Positions 18,535-36,487 of a stretch of DNA of 64,000 nt are shown piece by piece. Both the position numbers and the translations under genes were made by a program. How positions within the stretch are numbered: the stretch's first letter is position 1; each line of letters begins with the position of its first letter. The notes beneath the pieces were generated by a model, which searched no databases, was not told the DNA's origin, and saw nothing but the letters and a program-made list of their open reading frames with translations. The DNA comes from Acidobacteriota bacterium (lineage in GTDB: Bacteria > Acidobacteriota > Vicinamibacteria > Vicinamibacterales > 2-12-FULL-66-21), in NCBI GenBank assembly GCA_016184105.1, contig JACPDI010000057.1, positions 1 to 64,000 on the forward strand. The letters run 5' to 3'.

Positions 18535-20199
18535 TTGACGGCGCGAATCCTCGTGAGACGCACAGCGGCGGCCCTCGTGGCCGCCGTTGTTGTTTTGATC
18601 GCGCTGGCGCTCCCCCCATCCCCGCGGGCCGTCACGCATTCGGCGGCTGTCGATCCCCTCACGCTCAAGGGCGCGCTCCACGTTCACACGGTCAAGTCCG
18701 ACGGCGGCGGCACCATGGACGAGGTCGCGGCGGCCGCTGCGGCGGCCGGGTTGACGTTCCTCGTCATCACCGATCACGGCGACGGCCGTGGTCTCCAGCC
18801 TCCGTCCTATCGCCGGGGCGTGCTCTGCATCGACGGAGCCGAGATCAGCACGGACCAGGGGCACGTGGTCGCCATCGGCCTGAAGGAGGCGGAGTATCCG
18901 CTGGCCGGCGAGGCGCGCGACGTGGTGGAGGATGTCCAGCGCCTGGGGGGCATGGCTGTCGCCGCGCACCCCGCGTCGCCGAAAGAGGCGCTCGCGTGGT
19001 CCGCCTGGGAAGCGCCCATCGACGGCATCGAATGGCTGAACGCGGACAGCGAGTGGCGCGACGAGAGCGGCGCGTCGCTGGCGCGCGCGGTGCTGGGCTA
19101 CTGGCTCAGGCCCGCGGCGGCAATCGCGCGAACGTTTGACGGGCCATCATCGGCGCTGGCCCGCGCCGATGAGTTGGCGGCGCGCCGGGCGCTCGCGTAT
19201 GTCGCCGGACACGACGCGCACGGCAGGATCGCTCGGGGAGGCCCGGAGGACTACGGCCGCCGGGGGATCCCACTGCCGACCTACCGCGCTCTGTTCGAGA
19301 CCTTCGCCGTGCACGTCGCGCTTGACCGGGCGCTGACGGGGGACGCGGAGGCTGATGCACCGGTGCTCGTGCGGGCGCTGAAGCGCGGCCGCGTGTTCAC
19401 CGGCATCGACGGTGTCGCCCGGCCGGCGCGGCTGATGTTCCGCGCAACGAGCGGGTCGGCGAGCGCGGCCATCGGGGATCGGCTGATTCCGGCAGGGCCG
19501 GTTGATTTCGAGGTGCAGGCCGGCGGGCCGCCCGGCGCGACGATCGTTCTGCTGCACAACGGCGCCGAGCGCGCGCGCGCGCCGGCGCCCGGTCTGGCCA
19601 GCCGGATGGTCGCCGCTCCGGGCGCCTACCGCGTCGAGGTCCACGTTCCCGGCGCGCCCGGCACCCCGCCAGTGCCGTGGATCGTGTCCAGCCCAATCTA
19701 TGTCGGCGTTGCGCCCGTTGGTCCGCTCGAGCCCCAGCCGGGCGCGGCGACCGCCCCGGTCGGCAACGACTGGAGCATGGAGCATGCGGAAGGAAGTGGC
19801 GGCGCGGTCAGCGTGTCGCCCGAAGGCGTGGAGTTCGACTACCACCTCGGACCGATCGGAACCAGCCCGTACGCGGCACTGGTTCACGCCGTCGCGGTGC
19901 CAGCCGCAGCCAGGTGGCTGTCCTTCGGTGCCCGCGCGGATCGGCCGATGCGCATCTCCGTGCAGTTGCGCTCGCCGGCCGGCGGCGGGGCAGGGCAGCG
20001 GTGGCGCCGGTCGATCTTCGTCGGGCCGGCCGGGCGGCGGATCGCGATCCGGCTCGAGGAGTTCCGCGCCATTCGAGGTGCTGCGCCGGCAGTCGATCGG
20101 GCTGGCGCCGATTCGCTGCTGTTTGTCGCCGACACCGTGAACGCAGACCCGGGATCCTCGGGCCGGCTCGCGCTGAGAGACGTCGAGTGGAGGGAATAA
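18535..20199 (+). CDS. CehA/McbA-like PHP-domain metallohydrolase, exported
   Basis: A 554-residue protein. The TTG start is supported by GGAG four bases upstream and an N-terminal signal-like segment (hydrophobic residues 10-27). The PHP domain has metal-binding motifs 'LHVHTVKSDGGGT', 'VITDHGDG', 'VAAHPASP' and 'AGHDAHGR'. The second half is a beta-rich region of unknown type, perhaps substrate binding. CehA/McbA are aryl-ester or carbaryl hydrolases, but most relatives are uncharacterised, so only a metal-dependent hydrolase is claimed. It follows metK closely and its stop codon lies within the left arm of the 27-bp inverted repeat. Confidence 0.8.
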   Translation: MTARILVRRTAAALVAAVVVLIALALPPSPRAVTHSAAVDPLTLKGALHVHTVKSDGGGTMDEVAAAAAAAGLTFLVITDHGDGRGLQPPSYRRGVLCIDGAEISTDQGHVVAIGLKEAEYPLAGEARDVVEDVQRLGGMAVAAHPASPKEALAWSAWEAPIDGIEWLNADSEWRDESGASLARAVLGYWLRPAAAIARTFDGPSSALARADELAARRALAYVAGHDAHGRIARGGPEDYGRRGIPLPTYRALFETFAVHVALDRALTGDAEADAPVLVRALKRGRVFTGIDGVARPARLMFRATSGSASAAIGDRLIPAGPVDFEVQAGGPPGATIVLLHNGAERARAPAPGLASRMVAAPGAYRVEVHVPGAPGTPPVPWIVSSPIYVGVAPVGPLEPQPGAATAPVGNDWSMEHAEGSGGAVSVSPEGVEFDYHLGPIGTSPYAALVHAVAVPAAARWLSFGARADRPMRISVQLRSPAGGGAGQRWRRSIFVGPAGRRIAIRLEEFRAIRGAAPAVDRAGADSLLFVADTVNADPGSSGRLALRDVEWRE

Positions 20200-20274
20200 G
20201 TGGGACAGTCACACTTTTCCTCCGGAACCTGACGGAAAAGTGTGACTGTCCCACTTATTCTGTCCCACTTATTC
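20194..20274. repeat. 27-bp perfect inverted repeat with partial third copy
   Basis: Arms 20194-20220 and 20234-20260 are exact reverse complements, with a 13-base loop. The left arm begins GAATAAGTGGGACAGTCACA. The 14 bases TGTCCCACTTATTC that end the right arm are repeated directly at 20261-20274. It fills the space between two convergent genes and contributes the stop codon of each. It resembles a REP-type palindrome and probably acts as a bidirectional terminator. Confidence 0.85.
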
Positions 20275-24597: not shown

Positions 24598-25086
24598 CTA
24601 CATCTTGTACTTGCCCAGGTCATCCGGATCGAGGCTTTCGAGCCAGCGCTGAAGCCGTTCCGTGTCCGATTTGTCGGGGGCGATCTCCTGGGTCTTCGCG
24701 TTGTCGATGACCGCCTCCTCGACAAAAATCGGGGCCTTGGTCCTGAGCGCCAGCGCGATCGCATCGCTCGGGCGGGCGTCCACCGCGACGATGCCCTCGG
24801 CGCCGGCCTCGAGGTAAATCAGCGCGTAGAAAGTGTTCTCCTTCAGCTCCGACACGACGATCTTCCGGACGGTGGCCTTCAGGTCCTCGATGACGTTCTT
24901 CAGAAGGTCGTGGGTCATTGGCCGCGGCGTCGTCACGTTCTCGATTTGCAGCGCGATCGCGTTCGCCTCGAACACTCCCACCCAGATAGGCAGGACGCGC
25001 TGCCCGTCCTTGTCGCGCAGGATGATGATCGGCATGTTGGTGATGGGATCGACCATCAGCCCCTTGATCGACATGTCAATCTGCAT
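24598..25086 (-). CDS. Bifunctional nuclease domain protein (DUF151)
   Basis: A 162-residue protein of the DUF151/bifunctional nuclease family. Visible motifs are 'PIIILRDKDGQRVLPIWVGVFEANAIALQIEN', 'RPMTHDLLKNVIEDL' and 'VDARPSDAIALALRTKAPIFVEEAVID', which make up the conserved core. Plant and bacterial relatives show DNase/RNase activity or act in stress responses; the role here is unknown. The start overlaps the end of miaB by 11 bases, so translation is probably coupled. Confidence 0.88.
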   Translation of the reverse strand: MQIDMSIKGLMVDPITNMPIIILRDKDGQRVLPIWVGVFEANAIALQIENVTTPRPMTHDLLKNVIEDLKATVRKIVVSELKENTFYALIYLEAGAEGIVAVDARPSDAIALALRTKAPIFVEEAVIDNAKTQEIAPDKSDTERLQRWLESLDPDDLGKYKM

Positions 25087-26470
25087 GAGAACCTGCCTGA
25101 CCGCGTAGGCTGTTCGGCCCCGCCTCCGTGATGGTCACCTGCACCGTCCGCCCGACCCACTCGGCCGGTTCGGTGGCCGGCGCGGGCAGCGGGAAATTAA
25201 CAACCGTGTTCCCCGTCGTCCGGCCGGAAAGCTCCCAGCGGCGCTTGCGGCTCGTCGCGTCGACCAGTACCTCGAAGGACCGTCCAACCGCAGCCTCGTG
25301 CAGCTCGATCTGGATCCGTTTCTGGAGCCCCTGGAGGATCGACAGCCGTTCGCTCTTGGTGCTCTCGCTGACGTCATCGGGCAACCGCTTCTCCGCCAGC
25401 GTGTTCGGCCGCGACGAGTACTTGAACGAGAACATGCTGTGGAAGCGCACCGCCTCGACGAGCGAAAGCGTTTCCGCAAAGTCCGGCCCGGTTTCACCCG
25501 GGAACCCGACGATCATATCGGTCGAAAGCGCGATGTCCGGCACCGCCTCCCTGACGCGGCGAACCAGGTCCAGGTAGCTGTCGCGCGTATAGCGACGCCG
25601 CATGGCTTTCAGAATCGACGAAGAGCCTGACTGCACCGGCAGGTGCAGGTGCTTGCAGACCTGCGGGATGTCGCGTACTGCTTCGATGAGACGCGGCCCG
25701 ACATGCCGCGGATGCGGGCTCGCAAACCGGATGCGCTCGACCCCGGGCACCCGGCTCACACGTTCCAGGAGCTCGGCGAAATCGCACGCGGCATCGTCCG
25801 GCGCCTGGTAGTGGTTCACGATCTGTCCGAGCAGCTGGATTTCCTTCCGCCCCGAGTCCGCCGCCTCCCGGACCTCCGCGACGATTTCCGCAACGGGTCG
25901 CATGCGCTCGTGCCCCCGCGTGTACGGCACCACGCAGAAGGCGCAGAAGTCGTTGCACCCTTCGACGATCGTCACGTACGCCTTTACCGGGTCTCCCCGG
26001 CGCGTGAGGCCCAGCGGAAACGAGACGTCCTCGTGGGGGTTGATGTCGATGTAAAAGGGGTCGGGAGCCTTTTTCGCCGATGCAGGCCCGAAAAAGGCTC
26101 CCGACCCCTTTTTCTCGGCCCGCTCCACCAGCATGGGAAGCATCTTCAGGCTTTGCGTGCCCACGATAACGTCGATGTCGCGCGAGCGCTTGCGAAGCGC
26201 GGGCCCTTCCTGCTGCGCCACGCAGCCGGTGACCGCCAGCACGGGCCTGCGCCCCACTTCGGCGGCCTTCACGCGCAGTTCCCCCAGGCGCGAATAGAGC
26301 TTGTCCTCGGCGCGCTCGCGCACGCTGCAGGTGTTGAGCACGACCAGATCTGCTTCCTGCGACTCCTCCGTCGCTTCGTAGCCCGCCTGCTCCAACAGGC
26401 CGGCCATACGCTCGGAGTCGTGGAAGTTCATCTGGCAGCCGAACGTCTCGATCAGGTATTTCTTGGTCAA
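25076..26470 (-). CDS. miaB: tRNA-2-methylthio-N6-dimethylallyladenosine synthase
   Basis: A 464-residue radical-SAM methylthiotransferase that modifies A37 of tRNAs reading UNN codons. The N-terminal UPF0004 domain has cluster cysteines C12, C48 and C83. The radical-SAM CxxxCxxC is C172-C176-C179 (GCNDFCAFCVVPYTRG). A TRAM domain ends the protein. The usual LLGQNVNSY motif reads LLGQIVNHY here. Residues 120-140, between the two catalytic domains, are encoded by a 60-bp palindrome (26053-26112) that adds about 20 residues relative to what I expect of relatives. The reading frame is kept, so the enzyme may still work. It overlaps the DUF151 gene downstream. Confidence 0.95.
   Translation of the reverse strand: MTKKYLIETFGCQMNFHDSERMAGLLEQAGYEATEESQEADLVVLNTCSVRERAEDKLYSRLGELRVKAAEVGRRPVLAVTGCVAQQEGPALRKRSRDIDVIVGTQSLKMLPMLVERAEKKGSGAFFGPASAKKAPDPFYIDINPHEDVSFPLGLTRRGDPVKAYVTIVEGCNDFCAFCVVPYTRGHERMRPVAEIVAEVREAADSGRKEIQLLGQIVNHYQAPDDAACDFAELLERVSRVPGVERIRFASPHPRHVGPRLIEAVRDIPQVCKHLHLPVQSGSSSILKAMRRRYTRDSYLDLVRRVREAVPDIALSTDMIVGFPGETGPDFAETLSLVEAVRFHSMFSFKYSSRPNTLAEKRLPDDVSESTKSERLSILQGLQKRIQIELHEAAVGRSFEVLVDATSRKRRWELSGRTTGNTVVNFPLPAPATEPAEWVGRTVQVTITEAGPNSLRGQAGSHAD
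26053..26112. repeat. 60-bp palindromic element inserted in frame in miaB
   Basis: Arms 26053-26076 and 26089-26112 are exact 24-base reverse complements around the 12-base loop CCGATGCAGGCC. The left arm starts AAAAGGGGTCGGGAGCCTTT. Sixty bases equal 20 codons, so the miaB frame is preserved. It resembles REP-type or Rickettsia-palindromic-element-like inserts rather than coding sequence. Confidence 0.85.
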
Positions 26471-33570: not shown

Positions 33571-33649
33571 GCAGGCAGAAGGCACAAGGCACAGGGCACG
33601 AGGAAGGCACGAGATGCGGGTGCCGGGAATTTCCCTCGTGCCTCGTGCC
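33571..33649. repeat. Heptamer GGCACRA repeats with terminator-like hairpin
   Basis: GGCAGAA, GGCACAA, GGCACAG and GGCACGA units in tandem are followed, after 21 bases, by CTCGTGCC units on the other strand sense. AAGGCACGAG (33604-33613) pairs with CTCGTGCCTT (33642-33651). The hairpin lies between the convergent ssb and cupin genes and includes part of the cupin stop codon. Confidence 0.8.
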
Positions 33650-34006
33650 TTACTTCGTTTCCCTCCCGTACCGATCCTCCAGCCTCACCACATCGTGCAG
33701 TTCCGGCGTGGACACCTCGAAGATGTCGCTGTCTTCGATCGCGGTCATGCGGTGGATCGTCCTGGGCGTGATGTGGACGCTCTCGCCGGGCCGCATCTCG
33801 CGCTTGGTGAGGGTGTCCCCCTGCTGGATCTCGAACAGCAGGCGCCCTGACGAGAGATAGATCGTCTCGTCCTTCAGGTTGTGGTACTGGAGGCTGAGCG
33901 CATGGCCGGCATTCACGTGAATCAGCTTGCCGACGTAGCGGTCGGTTTTCGCCCAGTGCAGCTCGTAACCCCAGGGTTTGTCGACTCGTGTGATCTGTTC
34001 GCTCAT
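33650..34006 (-). CDS. Small cupin protein (mannose-6-phosphate isomerase type II-like)
   Basis: A 118-residue single cupin. It begins 'TRVDKPWGYELHWAKTDRYVGKLIHVNAGHALSLQYH', the pattern of the C-terminal domain of type II phosphomannose isomerase/GDP-mannose pyrophosphorylase. Metal ligands are probably the His in LQYH, a Glu in 'KDETIYLSSG' and the His in 'GESVHITPRTIH'. It lacks the pyrophosphorylase half, so either a small isomerase or a sugar-binding sensor is possible. The ATG overlaps the ptsI stop (ATGA), which ties it to the PTS genes and the mannose-type EIIA. Confidence 0.85.
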   Translation of the reverse strand: MSEQITRVDKPWGYELHWAKTDRYVGKLIHVNAGHALSLQYHNLKDETIYLSSGRLLFEIQQGDTLTKREMRPGESVHITPRTIHRMTAIEDSDIFEVSTPELHDVVRLEDRYGRETK

Positions 34007-36406: not shown

Positions 36407-36487
36407 AAGCAGGCACAAGGCACGGGGCACGAGGCACGAGCCAAGGCTGTGCGATCGGCCTTGTGCCCCGTGCCTCGTGCCTGACGC
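36407..36487. repeat. Heptamer repeats forming a long hairpin in the rapZ-EIIA spacer
   Basis: Left arm 36411-36434 and right arm 36459-36482 are reverse complements at 22 of 24 positions. Each is built from heptamers GGCACAA, GGCACGG, GGCACGA. The hairpin sits within a co-directional gene series, so it may attenuate or process the mRNA between rapZ and the PTS genes. Confidence 0.85.

Follow-up and report, generated by a model that had tools for sequence, protein, structure and literature searches.

A palindrome in frame within miaB of an Acidobacteriota bacterium shares its arms with the ends of a resident Y1 transposase gene and is probably a miniature mobile element

The window analyzed here, a 64,000-nt stretch of genomic DNA from an Acidobacteriota bacterium, carries on its reverse strand the gene for the tRNA methylthiotransferase MiaB, and within this gene lies a 60-nt palindrome. 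The features of the locus, in window coordinates, are as follows.

25076..26470, reverse strand: miaB, tRNA methylthiotransferase, the host gene (464 aa), open across the element
26159..26461, reverse strand: UPF0004 domain of MiaB, residues 4 to 104
25460..25972, reverse strand: radical-SAM domain of MiaB, residues 167 to 337
26053..26112, no strand: 60-nt palindrome, a putative two-armed TIR/REP-like miniature element, in frame within miaB
26053..26076, forward strand: left arm AAAAGGGGTCGGGAGCCTTTTTCG, with the core common to 25 two-armed copies and the flank of a Y1 transposase
26077..26088, no strand: 12-nt loop between the two 24-nt arms
26089..26114, reverse strand: right arm, the 25-nt unit GAAAAAGGGGTCGGGAGCCTTTTTC plus one stem base

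The exact 24-nt inverted arms and the 12-nt loop described in an earlier sequence-only reading were recovered, with 100% complementarity between 26053 to 26076 and 26089 to 26112. That reading set the limits of the element at the ends of the palindrome, which are exact as such, but the conserved arm unit is 25 nt long (GAAAAAGGGGTCGGGAGCCTTTTTC), and the miaB copy thus runs 2 nt further on one side, to 26114. By inspection, the unit itself forms an 8-bp stem about a 9-nt center. Folded as single-stranded DNA, the palindrome reached −31.7 kcal/mol, compared with an average of −13.3 for shuffled sequences (z −7.5), a value equaled by none of 200 shuffles. Further near matches to the arm were absent from the 64,000-nt window, with 0 expected from shuffles. 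The arm contains no stop codon in any of the six frames, and most copies of the element are open in five or six. The near-symmetric peptide pointed out previously is present (KKGSGAFF and KKAPDPF), but it is merely one arm read on both strands.

The host gene is a normal miaB on either side of the element, as had been proposed: the open reading frame scored 454 bits against the MiaB model TIGR01574 (cut-off 355) and matched the solved MiaB structure 7mjv over its length. The foreign peptide corresponds to residues 119 to 140, in the linker that joins the UPF0004 domain to the radical-SAM domain, where the earlier reading had placed it. This linker comprises 22 residues here, compared with a mode of 7 among the sequences of 26 relatives (7 residues in 13 of the 26, and 8 to 30 in the remaining 13). 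The foreign peptide was found in the MiaB of none of the 26 relatives, and the alignment that had been suggested as a check therefore indicates that the palindrome is an insertion, as judged at the protein level against other genera (∼70% protein identity). The estimate of about 20 added residues holds insofar as the linker is lengthened, but, measured against the usual linker of 7 residues, the net gain is about 15. Excising exactly 60 nt would leave a linker of 2 residues, below the relatives' minimum of 7, so either the insertion was not clean or the linker changed afterwards. The insertion may have cost the linker some five of its native codons; alternatively, the linker may have been unusually short to begin with.

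The arm is dispersed across the genome (4.24 Mb in 69 contigs), as had been anticipated. In total, 30 arm sites were identified, comprising 25 two-armed palindromes and 5 single sites, the latter being 3 solo arms and 2 arms around one gene; a reversed control pattern yielded 0 matches in the same genome. Together with the relatives that lack the insert, this dispersal supports the earlier proposal that a copied palindrome entered a tolerant linker of miaB with the frame kept; of the two outcomes named beforehand as refuting it, conservation of the residues in relatives and an arm present only once, neither was observed. The loops differ in each copy, save for one identical pair (L051 and L054), and unrelated loops are not predicted by simple copying of a master element. 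In 11 elements (flanks of L043 to L070), a small hairpin with the sequence TTACG-N5-CGTAA is found next to one arm or makes up the loop. The possibility that it is an independent target repeat was dismissed, since 11 of its 13 sites are next to or within arm elements.

Genic status was assigned from our own gene calls, which combined Pfam with a codon-usage model built from known genes. Seven of the 25 two-armed copies of this first family lie inside genes, all of them in frame: in miaB, ybeY, mazG, a VWA-domain gene, an AddA-like UvrD helicase gene, a zinc-ribbon gene, and a seventh gene that has no Pfam match and resembles a membrane protein. Further copies touch gene ends with an open frame (the tails of nuoM and of a GAF protein gene, the start of truB, and possible signal-peptide starts), and the remaining copies are intergenic. 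No gene disruption was seen among the first-family copies read. The insert is absent from the YbeY, MazG, and VWA proteins of relatives, which are variable in length at that point. The lack of stop codons in all six frames of the arm helps explain the survival of the genic copies. The lengths of first-family elements fall into no single class, and their boundaries vary or have decayed. The truB gene seems to draw its ATG start from the loop of an element (L057, about 1568 to 1629). In one relative (G004), the miaB, VWA, and ybeY linkers (L077, L231, and L178) hold other palindromes or repeats that are dispersed in that genome; repeat-derived linkers thus recur in this order.

A hairpin of this stability could act in the miaB mRNA, through folding, pausing, or message stability, or the encoded peptide could tune MiaB, in which case the insertion would be kept by selection. 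The arms also stay complementary within copies, copy-specific inner stem bases included, and these bases are more complementary within copies than between them (permutation p 0.0002, for a small set and a test chosen post hoc). However, within-copy complementarity probably reflects templated correction of near-palindromes, from which it is also expected, or inverted duplication. Copies of the element are furthermore found on both strands, within unrelated genes as well as in intergenic DNA, no relative examined keeps it, and the length of the linker is free to vary. A selected function in miaB is therefore unlikely.

The same arms occur 735 nt apart on contig 21 (L042, 2044 and 2779), in the purN/purM interval, where they surround an open reading frame for a transposase of the IS200-like/RAYT type that matches the Y1_Tnp family (PF01797; 59.5 bits) and, weakly, the REP_Tyr_transpos model (NF047646; 61 bits, below the cut-off of 80). 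The HUH motif and the catalytic tyrosine are present in its Y1 domain (NHWH and YVERN), where the usual class 2 Y---NP reads Y---NA. A C-terminal extension is present, but a search for a C-terminal HTH/DnaA_C-like domain gave no Pfam match at E 0.1. Only one transposase copy bearing these TIRs exists in the genome. A third, diverged transposase homologue is encoded elsewhere in the same genome (G000 C17:40908-41366; 35% identity).

Transposase homologues were found in 50 of 80 relatives. The closest one in the order (52% identity) is flanked by TIRs GGGGTCGGGAGCCTTTT with the same arm core, other homologues have TIRs of variant sequence (for example, GGGGTCGGGAGTATTTT and GGGGACACTCATCTTT), and many of those fetched have related flanking TIRs. 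The 16-nt arm, sought in 59 relatives with the organism's own genome excluded, was detected once, in one genome. Four distant genomes contain the exact 21-mer (two Planctomycetota-type MAGs, one Rhodopirellula, and one Syntrophobacter), and in the Phycisphaerae (L131) and Syntrophobacter (L134) sequences it directly follows the transposase C-terminus. The association of arm and transposase holds in three lineages. In the Rhodopirellula MAG (L132, 4849 to 4945), the stem built on the same arm is extended by 13 copy-specific nt.

We infer from the common arms, their dispersal, the in-frame genic copies, the absence from relatives, and the association with a transposase that the element is mobile. 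The 60-mer is, with considerable confidence, a miniature nonautonomous mobile element, a TIR pair that was probably moved in trans by the resident HUH-Y1 transposase. The mobile unit would be the inverted pair of 25-nt TIR units, on which the transposase of the purM/purN interval, flanked by the same TIRs, would act by cutting and pasting the element as a single-stranded DNA hairpin. In miaB, the element would have landed in a length-tolerant interdomain linker with a multiple of three bases, leaving the gene open, while insertions elsewhere in genes were presumably purged. Its persistence there would follow from the tolerant linker, the multiple of three bases, and the stop-free arms. The resulting linker extension of 15 to 20 residues would be neutral and most likely has no function for MiaB.

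Two published themes meet in this element. Intragenic REPs, frequently dimers that encode 20 to 30 residues and possibly lie in flexible linkers, were reported by Di Nocera et al. (2013; PMC3733652), who separately described TIR-flanked tyrosine transposases (TIRYTs) with dispersed TIR dimers, an Acidobacteria group included, and left open whether TIRYTs generate TIR families. Most TIRYTs belong to subclass 2.1 of TnpA-Y1, and in-frame REPs inside transposase genes themselves have also been reported (Quentin et al., 2018; PMC6006769). Because the arms match the TIRs of a resident Y1 transposase, the TIR/TIRYT systems (TIRtrons) are the right comparison. As in those systems, a Y1 transposase gene lies between inverted repeats without a GTAG foot, and TIR copies are dispersed, here as 25 dimers and 3 solo arms. 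The sequence GGGGWSAS is common to many, not all, published TIRs; the TIRs of several relatives fit it, and the arm studied here, GGGGTCGG, differs at one position. The differences are that Pfam did not detect the C-terminal HTH, and we do not claim membership in subclass 2.1, and that the in-frame genic share is large here, whereas the main text of PMC3733652 lists intragenic elements for the GTAG and CGTC families.

Those intragenic REP dimers (for example, in O. terrae and R. conorii; PMC3733652) resemble the present element in their open frame, their length of 20 to 30 residues, and the proposed location in flexible linkers, and UvrD-type helicases and TruB are hit there as well, but the present element lacks a GTAG or CGTC tag and its cognate transposase bears TIRs. 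REPINs likewise consist of an inverted doublet and a spacer that form a hairpin and are RAYT linked, yet they are almost wholly extragenic (in SBW25, an overlap with genes was reported for 14 of 1,067 REP 16-mers; Bertels and Rainey, 2011; PMC3116915), and the arm here is TIR-like. Rickettsia palindromic elements are palindromic and in frame in many unrelated genes, encoding family-specific peptides, but are ∼150 bp long as described in the works cited by PMC10969869 (Ogata 2000, 2002), whereas the present element measures 60 nt and shares its ends with a resident transposase gene. A strict GTAG-type REP or REPIN, or a Rickettsia palindromic element, would account for a dispersed, transposase-linked hairpin doublet in frame in genes. 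Nevertheless, when the flanks of all copies were read, no GT[AG]G or CGTC foot was found at the arm edges, and with the arms matching the TIRs of the Y1 transposase, either identity is very unlikely; the parallel with Rickettsia palindromic elements and REPs drawn in the sequence-only reading is less apt than that with TIR/TIRYT systems. The flanks also displayed no consistent direct repeat, by eye, of the kind left by target-site duplication in MITEs. On its sequence features, the element is best classified as a miniature dimer, TIR/REP-like in kind, that belongs to a tyrosine transposase flanked by TIRs.

A second, unrelated TIR family is present in the same genome. Contig 18 encodes another Y1 transposase, with different TIRs (AAGTGGGACAGTCACACTT), and the AAGTGGGACAGTCACACTT pattern has 57 forward and 57 reverse matches, some sites being counted twice as the pattern is partly self-complementary. 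Of 40 loci read, 8 hold copies in frame inside genes, namely, those for ferrochelatase, a PLP enzyme, an ABC transporter, hydroxyacyl-CoA dehydrogenase, thiolase, Obg, pyruvate:ferredoxin oxidoreductase, and UbiE. The two-armed genic copies all have a length of 1 mod 3 (6/6), compared with 9, 9, and 7 copies across the classes outside genes (hypergeometric p 0.007, for a small set and a test chosen after seeing the data), which indicates that the surviving copies of this family were filtered for frame. One AAGTGGGACAGTCACACTT inverted pair lies within the window, at 20189 to 20265, near the 3′ end of a neighboring open reading frame.

Perfect fold-backs are known artefacts, and this is a draft assembly of 69 contigs. 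A metagenome-assembly or library-hairpin origin is nonetheless extremely improbable, given that the copies lie well within contigs and have individual loops and flanks, that frames are open through them, and that two families each match the flanks of a resident transposase.

Intragenic REP dimers and TIRYTs have both been published, but a genome in which TIR dimers are in frame this often appears to be unreported, none having been found in the main texts of the open-access literature, where we also found no account of palindromes in miaB. It is conceivable, though we put it forward tentatively, that the two families, each with its own Y1 transposase, have together entered 15 or more conserved genes in frame (about one-fifth to one-quarter of their copies, the intragenic share being 20 to 28%) and that such TIR dimers, largely free of stop codons, would keep supplying core proteins of the whole order with linker insertions. 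In relatives, other repeats occupy the corresponding linkers of MiaB, YbeY, and the VWA protein. TIR-type tyrosine-transposase elements, usually considered intergenic, are seen here to lengthen conserved proteins repeatedly without breakage, and the sites of surviving insertions provide a natural map of linker insertions in core enzymes. Arm recognition is directly testable, given how many transposases occur with their cognate arms within one order.

Two further observations concern the repeats themselves. In 27 to 30 of 31 second-family copies (L292 to L331), the 4 nt next to each arm on the outside form mutual inverted repeats that are specific to the copy; they could arise from insertion at the tips of hairpins or from templated correction that spreads outward. 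In addition, two related inverted repeats of the GGCACGAGG type, at 36410 to 36483 and 33586 to 33651 of the window, suggest a third repeat family.
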